This document shows positions 16,911-63,716 of a stretch of DNA of 64,000 nt, one piece after another (within the stretch, counting starts at the first letter, position 1; each line of letters starts with the position of its first letter). The position numbers and the translations under genes are program-made. The notes under the pieces were generated by a model, which ran no database searches, had not been told where the DNA came from, and saw only the letters and a list, made by a program, of their open reading frames with translations. The DNA is taken from positions 62,001 to 126,000 of the forward strand of contig JAQBXY010000007.1 in the NCBI GenBank assembly GCA_027623325.1. Direction: 5' to 3'. Origin of the DNA: Gemmatimonadota bacterium (GTDB lineage Bacteria; Gemmatimonadota; Gemmatimonadetes; Longimicrobiales; Gaopeijiaceae).

Positions 16911-17074
16911 GGGTGCTCGCACGCTCCAGATGGGGTTCCAGGATGTCGGATGGCGGGGAATCTATATGCACCCGCGCGTCCGCGTCGAATCGCCGCGTTA
17001 CCTTTTCCGGCATTGGACCGTCTTGTTTTCGTCAAGCCTGCTTTCAAGGCATCGAAACACACGGAGACGAGACC

Positions 17075-18160
17075 ATGAGGATGTTGATCAAGCCCCGATT
17101 CCTTGGACTTCTGGGAATCCTTGCCGTCGCGGCCTGCGACGATATCGGTACGGATCTCGGATTCGAGGATCTGACCGCCGAACAGCAGCTAGAACTCGCC
17201 GTTTTGGCCGACGAGGCATCGTTCGACGTCGCCGTCACGATGACCAGCGTATCGAACGATGTGGCCGTCGCACACGGCCAGACGGTTGCGCTCCAGGCCC
17301 GCACGTTGAACGCCGAGGCGCGCGCCGCCTTTCACGAGGCGCGCCGGGAGATGCTCGCCGGCAATCACCGTCGGGCCCTCGAGGTGTCGGATATCGCACG
17401 CCGATTGGTGGCTCGCTCGCTCATCGCCACAGGCGGTGTCCCGGCGGTCGAGGATCTCATCGAGCGGCTAGAGGACCTACTGCTCACGCTCGACAATGAC
17501 GTGTTCGACAATCCCGAAGCGCTTCGGGCCGAACTAGAAGCGATCATCGCGGAAGCCCACGCCCTGCTCGAAGCGGGTGACTCGGTCGGCGCGGCCGCTC
17601 GAGCGATTCTGGGTGAACAGAGGGCGCGCTTTCGTCGTGGACAGCACGACCGCCGGGGTGACGTAGATCCCGACAGGGCGCGGCTCGAAGTCTCCTTCGC
17701 CGGGGTCGCAGTCTCTCTCGCGGAGCGCTTGATCGCCGACCAGGTCGTCCCGATCGATGTCGCTCAGCCGGACGCATCAGGTCGTCGCAATCGCTGGCTC
17801 GCCAACGCGAGGCACATGCTCGAGCACGCTCAGCAGGCACTTTCGAACGGGCACTTCGCTCGCGCACTTCACTTCGCGCAGCACGCTCAATGGTCGGCCC
17901 TCAAAGCCGTGATCCTGCCAGGTGGGATCACCGAGGACGAGCTCGACGCGATGGTAGTGCTGGCCACGGAGCTGCACGAACAGGCGTCGACCGCGCTCGG
18001 GGCCAACCCCGATATCGAGCCGTCGGAGCTGGAGCTTCGCATCCTCGGGCGAGCAGGCGACCTCCTCGAGATCGGGATTCGCAAACTCGAGGCGGGCCAC
18101 AGGCGCGGTGTCGCCGCCCTGTGGCGGTCGGCCGTCATGTCCAGCTGGTTGATCCGCTAG
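17075..18160 (+). CDS. Helical lipoprotein of unknown function
   Basis: A 361-residue predicted lipoprotein. The lipobox is ILAVAAC with Cys21, and the ATG at 17075 is preceded by GGAGACGAG. The mature part is almost entirely helical, with repeated Ala/His/Arg-rich pairs such as AFHEARREM, AHALLEAG, ARHMLEHAQQAL and ARALHFAQHA, suggesting degenerate helical repeats. I do not recognise a family. The gene ends 59 nt before an ECF sigma factor and reads in the same direction, so it may belong to the sigma/CBM operon as an envelope component, but this link rests on position only. Confidence 0.75.
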   Translation: MRMLIKPRFLGLLGILAVAACDDIGTDLGFEDLTAEQQLELAVLADEASFDVAVTMTSVSNDVAVAHGQTVALQARTLNAEARAAFHEARREMLAGNHRRALEVSDIARRLVARSLIATGGVPAVEDLIERLEDLLLTLDNDVFDNPEALRAELEAIIAEAHALLEAGDSVGAAARAILGEQRARFRRGQHDRRGDVDPDRARLEVSFAGVAVSLAERLIADQVVPIDVAQPDASGRRNRWLANARHMLEHAQQALSNGHFARALHFAQHAQWSALKAVILPGGITEDELDAMVVLATELHEQASTALGANPDIEPSELELRILGRAGDLLEIGIRKLEAGHRRGVAALWRSAVMSSWLIR

Positions 18161-18219
18161 TCATGGAGCGGGTCGCCGTCCCCAATGCGGGGGCGGCGAC
18201 CATCTCCCTATCTTGCAGC

Positions 18220-18771
18220 ATGTTGTCATCCGTTGAACGAACCGATGAGCAAGTGGTCCGGGACGTCCTGGCAGGTGACCGGGACGCCTACCGGCTCCTG
18301 GTACGCAGGTACGGTGATACGCTGCACGGACACGCACTCCGCATGACGGGAAACTCCGACGAAGCCGCAGATTTGGTGCAGCGCGCGCTCGTGAAGGGTT
18401 TCAAGAAGCTGAGGAGCTGTCGCGAACCGGAGCGAGTGGGGGCCTGGCTCTTTCGAATTCTGGCCAACCTCTGCAAGGACCACGTTCGGAGCGCGCGACG
18501 GAACGACATCTCCCTTGGCCGAGTGGCGCCGCACCTGGCCGGTGGATCGGACCCCGAAGCCGATGCAGCGGGAGCCGAGATTCGAAGCAGGGTCTGGGGT
18601 GCGCTCGATGCGCTGACCCCGGAACAGAAGGAGGCCTTCGTACTGAAACACGTGGAAGGCCGATCGTATGAGGAGATCGCAGCGGTCATGGACCTATCGG
18701 TCGCATCACTGAAGATGCGAGTTCACCGAGCGCGGGAAGCGCTCCGGGGACTCCTGGAGGAGTACGCATGA
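18220..18771 (+). CDS. ECF-family RNA polymerase sigma factor (first of three)
   Basis: A 183-residue group IV sigma factor. Region 2 starts near VRDVLAGDRDAYRLLVRRYG and includes the DLVQRALVKGFKKL core. Region 4 includes LTPEQKEAFVLKHVEGRSYEEIA and the helix-turn-helix SVASLKMRVHRARE. I chose the ATG at 18220; an ATG at 18163 in the same frame is possible, and neither has a clear ribosome site. The stop overlaps the next ATG as ATGA. It should direct transcription of its own operon and perhaps polysaccharide-related genes, held in check by the anti-sigma product that follows. The regulon is inferred. Confidence 0.92.
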   Translation: MLSSVERTDEQVVRDVLAGDRDAYRLLVRRYGDTLHGHALRMTGNSDEAADLVQRALVKGFKKLRSCREPERVGAWLFRILANLCKDHVRSARRNDISLGRVAPHLAGGSDPEADAAGAEIRSRVWGALDALTPEQKEAFVLKHVEGRSYEEIAAVMDLSVASLKMRVHRAREALRGLLEEYA

Positions 18772-18944
18772 AGGACGAACTACATCGGCATCTCGACGGT
18801 GACATGCCCGTCGAAGAGCTAGGCCAACCCCAACGGGACGAGGCGGATGAGTGGGACAGGATGGTCGCCTCGTTCCGTACCACGGCCCCGAAGGGTGCGA
18901 TGCCCCCCTGGCTCGAACAGAATGTCATGTCCGAGATCGAGTAG
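18768..18944 (+). CDS. Anti-sigma N-terminal domain, cut short by an in-frame TAG
   Basis: A 58-residue reading frame beginning in an ATGA overlap with the sigma gene. Its opening (LHRHLDGDMP) resembles the N-terminus of membrane anti-sigma factors, but there is no zinc-binding HxxxCxxC. It stops at TAG (18942-18944). The frame then continues without another stop for 19 codons into the GTG of the next gene, and the continuation (WLTRSFGWILRPAPVRISP) is what would be expected between an anti-sigma head and a membrane helix. I read 18768-19397 as one gene of 209 codons broken by a single nonsense codon. A MAG base error is possible. Confidence 0.75.
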   Translation: MKDELHRHLDGDMPVEELGQPQRDEADEWDRMVASFRTTAPKGAMPPWLEQNVMSEIE

Positions 18945-19001
18945 CTTGCCGAAGCCGGGTGGCTTACCCGGTCCTTCGGCTGGATCCTTCGACCCGCCCC
19001 G

Positions 19002-19397
19002 GTGCGCATCTCCCCCCTCGCGGCCGGCCTCGTCTTCGCAGCATTCGCGGCTGTCATCTTGATCCCAGGGCCGATCGGAACGCCGGCGTCGACACCGGTT
19101 GCGGACCCGTTGGGGGCTCCCCAGGCCGTCGTGTACGTGCAGTTCCTGCTCGATGCCCCCGCCGCCACGAGCGTTGCCGTCGCCGGAGATTTCAGTGAGT
19201 GGGAGCCGCAGTTCGCGCTGGACGATGCCGACGGCGACGGGATCTGGACGGGACGGGTGCCGATCCGGCCGGGGGTCCACAGCTACATGTTCCTGATCGA
19301 CGGAACGCAGTGGCAGACCGACCCGTACGCGGGCCGATATCAGGACGACGGCTTCGGGAATCGAAACGCGGTCCTCGCGGTCGCCGCAGGAGCGTAA
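19002..19397 (+). CDS. Membrane-anchored glycogen-binding-type (CBM48/AMPK E-set) domain
   Basis: A 131-residue frame from a GTG, in the same frame as the truncated anti-sigma before it. It opens with one membrane helix (about 5-22), then a linker, then an E-set carbohydrate-binding module of the AMPK beta-subunit/isoamylase type. Signature segments are VAVAGDFSEWEP, DGDGIWTG, RPGVHSYMFLIDG and the TDPYAG turn. The topology places the module outside the cytoplasm, where it could bind alpha-glucans or other polysaccharides. In the intact form it would be the sensor half of an anti-sigma factor. The GTG lacks a strong ribosome site, so whether it is expressed separately is unknown. Confidence 0.8.
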   Translation: MRISPLAAGLVFAAFAAVILIPGPIGTPASTPVADPLGAPQAVVYVQFLLDAPAATSVAVAGDFSEWEPQFALDDADGDGIWTGRVPIRPGVHSYMFLIDGTQWQTDPYAGRYQDDGFGNRNAVLAVAAGA

Positions 19398-19398
19398 T

Positions 19399-20565
19399 GT
19401 GACCTTCCGAGGCTTCTTCTGGTTGCTGGTCACCACGGTGGCGACGGGCTCGGGTGCGACCCCGCTCGCCGCCCAACGTGACCTCACCCTGGAAGTCGGT
19501 GCCTCGCAGATCGGCCCCCCGCTCGACGTGGCGGGAGACCGCGCTCGGTTCGTCATCGGGGGCCTGAGAGGGTCCGCCTACTCGGCCGGAGGGTCTGGGG
19601 TCTTCGGCTCGGTGCTCTTCGGGCAAACACTCGACGATGTTACGGGCGGCAACTTTCTGTCCGGCATGGTCTCGGCAAGTATTGCCGATCGCTGGACGAG
19701 CAATCTGAACGCGAGTTTCGACGTCCGACTCATGGGCTACGGCGTGCAACGCCCCTTCCCCTACCGCGCATTCGCCGCGGAGGGTGGCCCCTCGCTCCGA
19801 CTCCGGACACCGAATCTCTCGGTCAAGCTGTCAGGATTGGGGGGCGTGGGCCGCTCGCAACTCGAATTGTGGAGGCTGGAGGGCGGACGGACGCGCCTCT
19901 TCGAAGACGACCTGTGGCGCGCGGGTGGGACGGCAGAAGTCATGGTGGGCCCCGTCACCTCGAGCTTCGGCCTCGTGGCCGGACGTCATGAGACTCCGGG
20001 GGGCGGCTACGGCACGATCGGAGGCAGGGTCGTACTCGCGGGGCTGTGGGGCCTCGCGGAACTCCGCGTCGACCGTTGGAAAACGCCGACGAGCACCGAG
20101 ATCACGGGCGGACTCGCACTGGTCGTGCCCATGGGGCGGTCCTGGAGCCTTCGCGGCTTCTTCGGACGGACCGATCCGGATCCGCTCACGCTCGCTCAGC
20201 CTGGTAGCGGGAGTGGCGGAGTACTCGTCTGCCGGAATCTTCTTTCCAGTGGAGACGAGGAGCCGCCGTTTTCACCCTACGAGATCATTCGCTACGGCGA
20301 GACCACGAGTCGGGTCCGGCTCATGGTGGAGGCTCCCGAGGGCACTGTGACCGTGCACGTGATGGGTGATTTCACGTTGTGGGATCCTGTGCCTATGAGC
20401 CGTGGGGAGGGTATGTGGCTCGTCGAACTCGACGTGCCCGCGGGGACGCACCACTTCGGTTTCTTGATCGATGACGAATGGCATGTGCCGGCCGACGCAC
20501 CTGACGTCGTGCCGGACGAATGGGGGCGCATGAGCGCGACCCTCGTGATTGAAGGAGGCCTATGA
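19399..20565 (+). CDS. Secreted protein with barrel-like region and C-terminal glycogen-binding-type domain
   Basis: A 388-residue protein with a signal peptide of about 25 residues. The middle (about 30-270) is rich in alternating hydrophobic strands and glycines, as in outer-membrane beta-barrels. The C-terminal 90 residues form another E-set carbohydrate-binding module: VTVHVMGDFTLWDPV, GEGMWLVELDVPAGTHHFGFLIDD. The GTG start lies one base after the preceding TAA. Two modules of the same kind in adjacent genes of a sigma operon suggest a common polysaccharide ligand at both membranes. Family and ligand are inferred; the barrel needs structure prediction. Confidence 0.8.
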   Translation: MTFRGFFWLLVTTVATGSGATPLAAQRDLTLEVGASQIGPPLDVAGDRARFVIGGLRGSAYSAGGSGVFGSVLFGQTLDDVTGGNFLSGMVSASIADRWTSNLNASFDVRLMGYGVQRPFPYRAFAAEGGPSLRLRTPNLSVKLSGLGGVGRSQLELWRLEGGRTRLFEDDLWRAGGTAEVMVGPVTSSFGLVAGRHETPGGGYGTIGGRVVLAGLWGLAELRVDRWKTPTSTEITGGLALVVPMGRSWSLRGFFGRTDPDPLTLAQPGSGSGGVLVCRNLLSSGDEEPPFSPYEIIRYGETTSRVRLMVEAPEGTVTVHVMGDFTLWDPVPMSRGEGMWLVELDVPAGTHHFGFLIDDEWHVPADAPDVVPDEWGRMSATLVIEGGL

Positions 20566-21242
20566 TGAAGAGCCCAGCCTTGACCCTCGTGTGTTTGATG
20601 GCGTTCGGCGCCACGAGCCTGATCGCGCAGGAAACTGCGCGGGAGCGTGCGCAACGAACGCTTCCGCCACAGGTCTTCGACGATGTCGCGGCCCTCGCCA
20701 CCGAAATGAGGGCGTCCGGCATTCCGGATGAGCCGCTCTTCAACAAGGCGTTGGAGGGCATGGCGAAGAGGGTCCCGTCCGACCGGCTCATCCCGGCCGT
20801 GCGGGCCTACGCCGGCCGCCTCGGAGAGGCCCGTGGAGCGTTCGGCGCCGGCGCCTCGGTTCCGCTACTAGTAGCGGGGGCCGACGCGATCCAGCGCGGT
20901 GTGCCCAGCGAGACGCTCCGGTCGCTTCCTTCGGATCGCCCCAGGTCACCGGTCGCGGTCCTCGTGCTCGCCGAGCTTCTCGAGAGCGGCGTGCCGGTCG
21001 ACCGCGCGCTCGATGTCATGCGTCAGGCGATGGAGCAACGGACCCAGGACGCCGGAATGCTCGACATCCCCGCGCGGGTGCGACGTCTCATTCGGGCAGG
21101 CGTGCCACCGCATGAAGCCATGGAACGGGTACGCAGGGCCCTACAACGGGACCGCGGTGGCAACGTCGGGCCCGCGCTTCCGCCCGGGACCGAGCCGCTG
21201 TCGGACCAACGCCTGAGGGATCGGCTCCGCCGCATCGGATAG
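20562..21242 (+). CDS. Secreted helical protein of unknown function, last gene of the sigma/CBM operon
   Basis: A 226-residue protein with a signal peptide (cleavage near LIAQE). The rest is predicted to be helical, with repeated stretches built on an ALEGMAKRVPSDRL-like plan: VPSDRLIPAV, VPSETLRSL, VPVDRALDVM and VPPHEAMERV, each a Val-Pro turn followed by an acidic and an arginine-rich helix. I do not know the family. The ATG overlaps the previous stop as ATGA, so it is a genuine member of the operon. A periplasmic adaptor is possible but unproven. Confidence 0.8.
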   Translation: MMKSPALTLVCLMAFGATSLIAQETARERAQRTLPPQVFDDVAALATEMRASGIPDEPLFNKALEGMAKRVPSDRLIPAVRAYAGRLGEARGAFGAGASVPLLVAGADAIQRGVPSETLRSLPSDRPRSPVAVLVLAELLESGVPVDRALDVMRQAMEQRTQDAGMLDIPARVRRLIRAGVPPHEAMERVRRALQRDRGGNVGPALPPGTEPLSDQRLRDRLRRIG

Positions 21243-61966: not shown

Positions 61967-63220
61967 TCAGCCCTCTGCGAACAGACTCTCGAACAGCGCC
62001 CGCAGCTCGCCTTCCGTCCGCGGACCCTGAATGACGACCCAACCCTCACCAACCGGCATGCGGATCTCGTTCCTGCCCTCCGTCGGAGGAAGGACGAGCG
62101 ATGGATCGACCCCCGGCGGGAGGTGGAAGAGTTCCAGAATCTCACCCCCCTCGAGGCTCTGTACTACGTGCACACCGAGCGGGCTCGTACCGTCTCCGAG
62201 GTTTGTGACCGTGAGCACGGGGTAACCGGGCACCACGAGGGACGGCTCGTCCTCCTCGCGTTGGTACTCATTGACCGCCCGGCCGGTAGCCGCTGTCCCC
62301 TGGCTGATCGCCGACGTCACCGGCACGAGCGACTCGGCCCGCCTGCGTTCGGCCGCCAGATTCGGTTCGGCCCGCGGTGCGTCCTGAGGAGCAGCCGGAA
62401 CGGCCGTAGCGATGACCTCGCCGAGGCCCAGGCTGTCCCCGCTCCGGATGGCATCGACCGACTCCCTTGAAGCCTCTAGGGTGAGCGGCTGGAGATCTGC
62501 CGAACGCCCGGCCATCTGATCGGCGTCAGCGAGTGAAGTCAATGCGCCCACACCCCGCTCGAGGTCGTCGACCGACGGGTCGGGCTCATCCTTCACGGAA
62601 AGCGGCGGCCCCTCGTCGAGCGCGGAAACCTTCGCGACGACGTCGGCAGGGAGATCAGCTCGGGTGGCCGGAGGCTCTGCTACGGTGGGGGCCGAAACGA
62701 CACTCACCCCACCCGCCGCCGCAACCTCCGACCGCCTTCCGTCACGTTCTGCCTCTACAATCTGGGCAGCTTCCGCTGCGACCTCGTCCACATCAGCGGA
62801 CGCACCCTGCTCAGCCTGTTGACGGGCCGGTCGAAGCGCCGACTCCTCGAGCTGTCCTGCGTTCCCGCGCTGAATCGGCTGGAGCTGTCCGTCGCGTACC
62901 ATCCACCCGGCCCCGAGCGCCAGGACCACCGAAGCGGCCCAACCCAGACGGTATATGCGCACTGAAGCCGCCTGTTGCGGCGGGCGGGTCGTCCTCACAT
63001 AAGCCCGCAGCTCTTCGAAGCTCGGCATCTCGACATCGGGCGCAGCAAGTCCGAGCATCGCGGCGGCGTCAGAGCGAATGGAACGCTCCACGGCCAGCCG
63101 AGCGGCACATTCAGCGCACCCGTCCAAGTGCTCGCGCACTCTCTCGGCCTCCGCGGCCGGATATTCATCGAGCGCCCCATCCAAATAGGCGTGGAGCGCG
63201 CCCTCATCGACGTGCAACAT
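61967..63220 (-). CDS. Zinc-type anti-sigma factor with long periplasmic region
   Basis: A 417-residue anti-sigma factor. The cytoplasmic head has the zf-HC2 site His31, Cys35, Cys38 (HLDGCAEC) and an LHAYLDGAL opening. One membrane helix (about 88-108) is followed by a long, mostly disordered Ala/Glu/Pro-rich region (about 110-300) and a small folded C-terminal part (LVVPGYPVLTVTNLGDG to EGWVVIQGPRT). The ATG at 63220 overlaps the sigma gene by 17 nt and has GGAGAAGG upstream. The large external part may sense a ligand or protein. It controls the sigma factor encoded just upstream. Confidence 0.87.
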   Translation of the reverse strand: MLHVDEGALHAYLDGALDEYPAAEAERVREHLDGCAECAARLAVERSIRSDAAAMLGLAAPDVEMPSFEELRAYVRTTRPPQQAASVRIYRLGWAASVVLALGAGWMVRDGQLQPIQRGNAGQLEESALRPARQQAEQGASADVDEVAAEAAQIVEAERDGRRSEVAAAGGVSVVSAPTVAEPPATRADLPADVVAKVSALDEGPPLSVKDEPDPSVDDLERGVGALTSLADADQMAGRSADLQPLTLEASRESVDAIRSGDSLGLGEVIATAVPAAPQDAPRAEPNLAAERRRAESLVPVTSAISQGTAATGRAVNEYQREEDEPSLVVPGYPVLTVTNLGDGTSPLGVHVVQSLEGGEILELFHLPPGVDPSLVLPPTEGRNEIRMPVGEGWVVIQGPRTEGELRALFESLFAEG

Positions 63221-63716
63221 TCGCCTTCTCCCTTTCGTTGTATGCATCAGCCAGTCGGCGGCGTGCACGAGCGAGCGTTGTGCCCACCGCCCCTACCGCC
63301 AGCCCCAGTTCATTCGCGATCTCGGTGTAACTCTGTCCAGCATCCCACAGGAGCAGCGCTTCCCTGTCCTTCTCGGACAACGAATCCAACGCCTGCCGAA
63401 CCGCTCCCCAACGTTCCTGTTCCGACCATTCCGAAGCCGGGTCCTTGATCGACTCCTCCCGCGACTCCGCTTCTCCCTTGAGAAGCACGAGGTGCTTCCT
63501 GCGCCGGATTACGGTCCGGGCCTCATCCTTCGCCAGATTGGCAGCCACCTGAAAGAGCCAGGCCCTCGGTCGTTTCGGCTCGTGCTGTAGCGCTCGGACG
63601 AACGCCTCCTGAGCCAGATCACGCGCTCGCTCCACGTCCCACACCTTCCGATGGAGAAAGCGGACGAGATCGGGAAACGTCGTCCGGTAGAGGTCGTTCC
63701 AGTCGATCGTACTCAT
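63204..63716 (-). CDS. ECF-family RNA polymerase sigma factor (third of three)
   Basis: A 170-residue group IV sigma factor. Region 2 contains FLHRKVWDVERARDLAQEAFVRAL and PRAWLFQVAANLAKDEAR. Region 4 contains LSEKDREALLLWDAGQSYTEIANELGLAVGAVGTTLARARRRL. The ATG is 7 nt after the stop of the upstream partial gene. It is followed by an overlapping zinc anti-sigma factor, then an exported aminopeptidase and leucine dehydrogenase, so this operon probably links a surface signal to amino-acid or peptide use. The regulon is inferred. Confidence 0.92.
   Translation of the reverse strand: MSTIDWNDLYRTTFPDLVRFLHRKVWDVERARDLAQEAFVRALQHEPKRPRAWLFQVAANLAKDEARTVIRRRKHLVLLKGEAESREESIKDPASEWSEQERWGAVRQALDSLSEKDREALLLWDAGQSYTEIANELGLAVGAVGTTLARARRRLADAYNEREKANVARR

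Follow-up and report, generated by a model that had tools for sequence, protein, structure and literature searches.

A 64,000-nucleotide stretch of a Gemmatimonadota genome (assembly GCA_027623325.1, contig JAQBXY010000007.1, positions 62,001 to 126,000; hereafter the window) carries at 17075-21242, on the plus strand, a single operon of six open reading frames (ORFs). They encode, in this order, a lipoprotein, an extracytoplasmic function (ECF) sigma factor, an anti-sigma head, a transmembrane (TM) helix joined to a carbohydrate-binding module (CBM) of the CBM48/AMPK1_CBM type, a beta-barrel protein ending in another AMPK1_CBM domain, and a secreted helical protein, here called hel (Table 1). 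It is an instance of envelope signalling by an ECF sigma factor and an anti-sigma factor that extends across the phylum, marked by an unusual sensor domain and by a secreted partner so far undescribed; what it senses probably lies in the cell envelope. An earlier note, made from these letters alone, had proposed an ECF/anti-sigma-type sensing operon at this place; all six ORFs lie where it put them, and the sigma factor and both CBMs are now supported by Pfam.

Organization of the locus

The host genome (3.35 Mb in 60 contigs) has a completeness rating of 100%. The genes of the operon are closely packed: a gap of 59 nt separates the lipoprotein and sigma genes, the sigma gene and the anti-sigma head share 4 nt, a distance of 1 nt lies between the TM/CBM ORF and the gene for the barrel, and the latter overlaps hel by 4 nt. 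The 3' neighbour of hel is thiC, on the opposite strand.

Table 1. Coordinates of the operon genes and associated elements in the window.
Feature	Position	Strand	Evidence and remarks
Predicted ECF-type promoter GTTACC-N16-CGTCT	16997..17023	+	Motif ends 51 nt before the lipoprotein ATG
Lipoprotein, helical, 361 aa, lipobox AVAAC	17075..18160	+	ORF; operon neighbour in the genus and related genera
Covarying hairpin in the lipoprotein-sigma gap	18165..18207	+	Minimum free energy z-scores, compensatory changes
TATCTT, -10-like hexamer	18209..18214	+	By eye, in aligned gap sequences; 5 nt before the sigma ATG
ECF sigma factor, 183 aa	18220..18771	+	Sigma70_r2, Sigma70_r4_2, TIGR02937
Anti-sigma head, 58 aa, cysteine-free, ended by an in-frame TAG	18768..18944	+	Continuous with TM helix and CBM in aligned relatives
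In-frame TAG at the head/membrane-helix junction	18942..18944	+	Sense codon in all aligned relatives
Anti-sigma TM helix and CBM part	18945..19397	+	Helix ~19011-19067; CBM48/AMPK1_CBM ~19110-19385, predicted periplasmic
Outer-membrane beta-barrel with C-terminal AMPK1_CBM, 388 aa	19399..20565	+	Barrel residues 25-279, CBM 303-384
hel, secreted helical-hairpin protein, 226 aa	20562..21242	+	Constant neighbour, all-helical model

The sigma factor and its membrane partner

The sigma factor matches Pfam Sigma70_r2 (2.1e-17) and Sigma70_r4_2 (1e-16) above their gathering cut-offs, as well as TIGR02937 above its cut-off. It is a short protein whose major domains are sigma-70 regions 2 and 4, and it belongs on these grounds to the ECF group.

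The two ORFs that follow share one frame and are parted by a single TAG. At this codon all aligned relatives have a sense codon, with one continuous ORF for head, TM helix and CBM (VMAEIEALPE in relatives against VMSEIE*LAE in the window, the asterisk marking the stop). Among the matches of a phylum-wide profile search, the window copy contains one TAG, and nearly all other matches are listed without a stop. The head and the membrane/CBM part, listed separately in the earlier note, thus form one gene in the relatives, which the TAG splits here. The predicted layout is that of a membrane anti-sigma factor, with a head, a TM helix and an apparently extracytoplasmic domain, and the sigma gene lies alongside in 38 of 40 loci. 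The head, being cysteine-free, lacks the HxxxCxxC motif of zinc-binding anti-sigma factors. Arginines precede the helix and none directly follows it, a pattern that points to an N-in topology and hence to a periplasmic CBM.

Distribution and the constant core

A gene order unique to this contig would have told against the earlier note; a survey of Gemmatimonadota genomes finds it beyond the contig. A profile of the anti-sigma/CBM protein matches 260 of 394 sampled Gemmatimonadota genomes, in 100 of 141 genera; a barrel query matches 38 of 59 near genomes; and a scan of genome contigs, of a kind that detects close relatives only, yields matches from Gemmatimonadota exclusively, the nearest named ones being metagenome-assembled genomes. 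An operon unique to the contig can be dismissed, since the same genes recur phylum-wide, and this recurrence is far beyond chance.

Neighbourhoods were classified with five profiles built for the purpose. All 40 complete neighbourhoods contain hel; 38 have the sigma gene, 29 the barrel gene and nine the lipoprotein gene. Most of the earlier loci (L034-L053) were chosen by barrel similarity and hence favour the barrel; among the 25 complete loci chosen by the anti-sigma profile alone, sigma and hel are each found in 25 and the barrel in 14, and six of the 11 barrel-less loci come from one genus. Four layouts occur: (lipoprotein)-sigma-antisigma-barrel-hel (A), antisigma-barrel-sigma-hel (B), sigma-antisigma-hel-barrel-hel (C) and sigma-antisigma-hel (D). 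From these counts and layouts, the constant core as predicted from sequence comprises the sigma factor, the anti-sigma/CBM protein and hel. A pair of CBMs, which the earlier note had placed at the centre of the system, is not a constant feature: the barrel is missing at 11 of the 40 loci and hel at none.

Variants of the module were also encountered. Two loci (L047 and L049) read antisigma-barrel-hel with no sigma gene detected nearby; it may lie elsewhere or have diverged. One congener has two modules, its main operon and, on a short contig (L105, G006:C86), a paralogue that reads antisigma-hel-barrel-hel. The CBM48/AMPK-like proteins found on Vibrio chromids (L136, L137) are about 100 aa long; inspection by eye shows no signal peptide, and their surroundings contain no sigma gene. 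Horizontal transfer on plasmids was considered and rejected, as only these short stand-alone Vibrio CBM48 proteins were found and none with a sigma gene.

Several congeners are without the system. In one of them (G001) the promoter motif is kept beside the 3' half of hel, flanked by an epimerase gene and thiC; in another (G013) the motif survives at this syntenic site next to a lipoprotein gene that is cut short (remnants of the two congeners at L085:2679-3200 and L086:2991-3338). These remnants look like deletion scars, and the survival of a promoter and gene fragments at the syntenic site suggests that the operon was present there earlier and is dispensable.

A conserved promoter and the intergenic hairpin

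In the window lineage the lipoprotein gene is the first gene of the transcript, and the promoter lies upstream of it. Aligned upstream regions of lipoprotein genes share the motif GTTACC-N16-CGTCT. This form occurs at two sites in the window genome, the other one inside a long ORF, and the degenerate form GTKACC has three exact matches genome-wide. Of 56 loci, 24 have GTKACC-N16-CGTCT in exact form before their first operon gene and 36 have it in relaxed form, against 0.0019 (exact) and 0.0095 (relaxed) expected per search window, the background being taken from the rest of the same loci. In some layouts the motif also stands upstream of hel. Since a conserved ECF-type promoter precedes the first gene far above expectation, the motif indicates, as judged from sequence, that the operon is autoregulated by its own sigma factor.

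The gap between the lipoprotein and sigma genes (18161-18219) contains a hairpin with a minimum free energy (MFE) of -36.9 kcal/mol and no T run after it. Among seven sequences the MFE z-scores range from -4.0 to -6.0, with compensatory changes at 13 of 17 consensus pairs. A role as attenuator or RNA-processing element is possible, and the TATCTT hexamer could possibly serve as a basal, near-leaderless promoter of the sigma gene.

The CBM48/AMPK domains

The anti-sigma part matches AMPK1_CBM at 1.8e-9 (38.1 bits) and CBM_48 at 2e-7, and the barrel protein matches AMPK1_CBM at 1.2e-9 (38.7 bits, residues 313-383), the gathering cut-off of AMPK1_CBM being 26.8; the CBM_48 match likewise exceeds its cut-off. 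Conservation was read against an AMPK beta1 reference sequence, with its glucan contacts taken here to be W100, K126, W133, L146, T148 and N150. In the anti-sigma CBMs, W100 is kept in 45 of 45 sequences, W133 in 41 and N150 in 44, and position 146 is aromatic in all 45 (F in 44), so that four of the six cyclodextrin-contact positions of AMPK are almost invariant. The barrel CBMs keep W100 in 42 of 42 sequences and W133 in 40, and N150 in only 16. The carbohydrate face on which the earlier note depended is thus preserved as two stacking tryptophans in both domains, and in the anti-sigma copy additionally as the aromatic residue at 146 and N150. By hand count, 20 of ~78 columns of the anti-sigma CBM show conservation in 41 or more of the 45 sequences; the hypergeometric probability of finding four of the six contact positions among them, also computed by hand, is ~0.035. 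This lends modest support to a retained ligand site, and the near-invariance of these four positions makes carbohydrate binding by the anti-sigma CBM plausible.

The barrel, hel and the lipoprotein

The barrel protein was modelled with AlphaFold2 from a shallow alignment of four sequences (the window protein and L031-L033), giving ~14 long antiparallel strands. Foldseek relates the model to outer-membrane barrels and its C-terminus, with weak E-values, to AMPK/SEX4 CBMs; VIA-align likewise returns outer-membrane barrels at Z 13-16 (up to 16.3), including FhuA and the porin CymA. These matches reflect a common fold and are no indication of function. With an even number of strands and short turns on the side of the N- and C-termini, the model would place the barrel CBM in the periplasm rather than outside the cell. 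Both CBMs are predicted to be periplasmic; a barrel CBM on the external side does not agree with the model.

The hel protein has repeated xGVPxxxAL motifs, a signal peptide recognized by eye and an all-helical model (mean predicted local distance difference test score, pLDDT, 75.8). Its model has no significant fold match in the PDB, which is no evidence for a new fold, and neither the window protein nor diverged members show a convincing Pfam family; a marginal match to T2SSF was discarded, being unrepeated in diverged members. The lipoprotein matches Pfam HEPN (PF05168) above the gathering cut-off, as do four of five orthologues. This is a partial match in a lipobox protein and probably reflects helical similarity; a HEPN/AbiV defence role is considered unlikely on the same grounds.

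Elsewhere in the window, ORF translations on the minus strand give a second candidate sigma gene (63204-63716) with an adjoining anti-sigma-like gene (61967-63220). This pair (61967-63716) has no obvious tie to the CBM operon.

Proposed mechanism and alternative explanations

The preferred interpretation, which has about an even chance of being right, takes the operon to be a Gemmatimonadota module for envelope signalling that regulates itself, built on an ECF sigma factor and on an anti-sigma factor whose periplasmic CBM acts as the sensor. The module itself, its conservation, its promoter, the identities of its domains and the barrel fold are supported by sequence, conservation or models. 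The anti-sigma head would keep the sigma factor at the inner membrane, and the membrane helix would join it to the periplasmic CBM48/AMPK-type domain, whose conserved aromatic/Asn face would be the sensor. An envelope change, most likely a saccharide gained or lost on this face, would act as trigger; hel would modulate this step, as would the outer-membrane barrel and its periplasmic CBM at loci that have one. This would inactivate the anti-sigma factor, probably through proteolysis, and the freed sigma factor would transcribe its own operon from GTKACC-N16-CGTCT, yielding more lipoprotein, barrel and hel. Within this scheme we infer the binding of sigma factor and head, the periplasmic placement, the proteolysis, the ligand and the contact with hel. 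An extended form, in which the AMPK-type anti-sigma sensor works together with the barrel CBM, a saccharide or CBM-CBM contact spans both membranes and hel is an obligate co-regulator, is offered more tentatively.

Several results weigh against this interpretation. The anti-sigma head matches no Pfam family and no known anti-sigma family above cut-off: when searched for class I anti-sigma domains with X at the TAG, the window protein reaches NF052375 (anti-sigma factor E) at 6e-4, far below cut-off. In the sensor domain K126 and T148 are replaced, and the conserved tryptophans are a hallmark of the CBM48/AMPK family, so that their conservation is no proof of sugar binding. The barrel model is of moderate confidence (mean pLDDT 59.5, many core blocks at 65-89), with a poor CBM part. 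In the 56-locus survey layout C has no GTKACC-N16-CGTCT motif and presumably uses another promoter. The window genome contains no other CBM48 and no GH13 (GH57, GH31, GH15 and GH97 lying outside the search) and no credible glycogen synthase (GlgA), for which there is only a weak fragment match. Six of 11 operon-bearing genomes checked share such a profile (the window genome, G008, G015, G016, G018 and G032); in the other five (G005, G006, G009, G017 and G030) both a glycogen synthase and a protein resembling branching enzyme are present. A link to the cell's own glycogen is consequently unsupported in the window genome, where no sign of glucan metabolism was seen; glucan sensing by the operon is possible.

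The same genomic profile, in the window genome and five other operon genomes, favours an account in which the E-set/CBM48 domains serve protein contacts and the anti-sigma CBM binds hel, the barrel's periplasmic CBM or both. This is a serious possibility, if clearly less probable than the preferred interpretation, and the same holds for its corollary that the operon keeps watch on whether its own envelope proteins are present or assembled, in the manner of RseA/RseB or outer-membrane transducers. It accords with the presence of hel at every complete locus, with an output apparently confined to the operon itself, and with the known outer-membrane transducer domain that binds an anti-sigma factor and shields it from proteolysis (PMC11637429), yet W100, W133, F146 and N150 are almost invariant despite the strong divergence of hel and the absence of the barrel from some loci. 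The model of the earlier note, in which an extracellular or envelope glucan is sensed by way of a barrel that captures it at the outer membrane and an anti-sigma module that passes the signal on, could draw on the two stacking tryptophans of both CBMs and on polysaccharide-sensing anti-sigma factors such as RsgI of Clostridium thermocellum (PMC12203970). It is nevertheless improbable: the operon has no enzyme or TonB-type transporter, the genome lacks GH13, the barrel is missing at 11 of 40 loci, and the barrel CBM, predicted to be periplasmic, has lost N150 in 26 of 42 sequences.

A further question concerns the window copy only and is compatible with any of these explanations, namely whether the operon of this strain is decaying, the TAG leaving the head soluble and the CBM on a membrane fragment of its own as a step toward the losses seen in congeners. 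The sense codon of all aligned relatives, the remnants in G001 and G013 and the congeners without the system speak for decay. However, the stretch after the TAG has a mean identity of 62.2% against 59-64% in relatives and is no less conserved, and the barrel, hel and sigma factor of the window strain are likewise as conserved as elsewhere; the TAG may therefore be recent, an assembly error, or tolerated, with a GTG at 19002 downstream as a candidate restart that could bypass it. Decay is a real possibility but the less likely one. If the TAG is real, the head of the window strain is predicted to be complete and would lack its membrane anchor, and the operon copy may be damaged, with abnormal regulation.

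Significance and comparison with known systems

Gemmatimonadota are widespread soil bacteria whose signalling is scarcely known. An operon that about two thirds of the genomes sampled possess, and that combines a defined promoter with an unusual sensor and a secreted partner yet to be characterised, offers a starting point that can be tested directly. Should the CBM prove to bind sugar, the system would correspond, in Gram-negative cells, to the anti-sigma factors that bear CBMs, and would give a new role to the AMPK-type glycogen-binding fold, normally an intracellular reader of energy stores. A survey associated ~79% of Gemmatimonadetes ECFs with class I anti-sigma domains (PMC7406223), and its main text mentions neither carbohydrate-binding nor glycogen domains. 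Literature searches found no CBM48 anti-sigma factor and no account of the present operon, which is apparently undescribed.

Three regulatory systems offer partial parallels. The RpoE-RseA-RseB system of Escherichia coli consists of an ECF sigma factor, an anti-sigma factor with a periplasmic domain and a periplasmic partner encoded alongside. The present operon resembles it in these respects, its co-encoded secreted protein being hel; it differs in that hel is helical without a significant PDB match and that the sensor is a CBM48 domain, and neither RseA_N nor MucB/RseB is matched by the anti-sigma factor or hel. RsgI anti-sigma factors carry CBM-type sensor domains. They share with the protein described here a membrane anti-sigma architecture with an extracytoplasmic carbohydrate-binding domain, polysaccharide sensing being a property of RsgI, as reported for substrates of C. 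thermocellum (PMC12203970). In contrast to RsgI/sigma-I, the system is of ECF and CBM48/AMPK type, has no enzymes in the operon and belongs to a diderm with a barrel and hel; its head has no RsgI Pfam match, and its sigma factor matches ECF models. With FecIRA/FoxIRA it shares the combination, within a single operon, of an ECF sigma factor, an inner-membrane anti-sigma factor and an outer-membrane barrel to which an accessory periplasmic domain is joined, and the periplasmic domain of the transducer FoxA protects its anti-sigma factor from proteolysis (PMC11637429). The present barrel, however, is small (~14 strands by model, ~270 aa), carries its extra domain at the C-terminus and is absent from 11 of 40 loci, and there is no TonB-receptor, STN or FecR Pfam match in the barrel or anti-sigma protein.

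The sensor domain itself is best compared with the glycogen-binding domain of AMPK beta (PF16561), which belongs to the same family and whose two tryptophans, hydrophobic or aromatic residue and asparagine of the cyclodextrin site recur in the anti-sigma copy. Unlike that domain, those described here are predicted to lie in the periplasm, one as part of a membrane anti-sigma factor, in which K126 and T148 are replaced, and the other at the end of an outer-membrane barrel.

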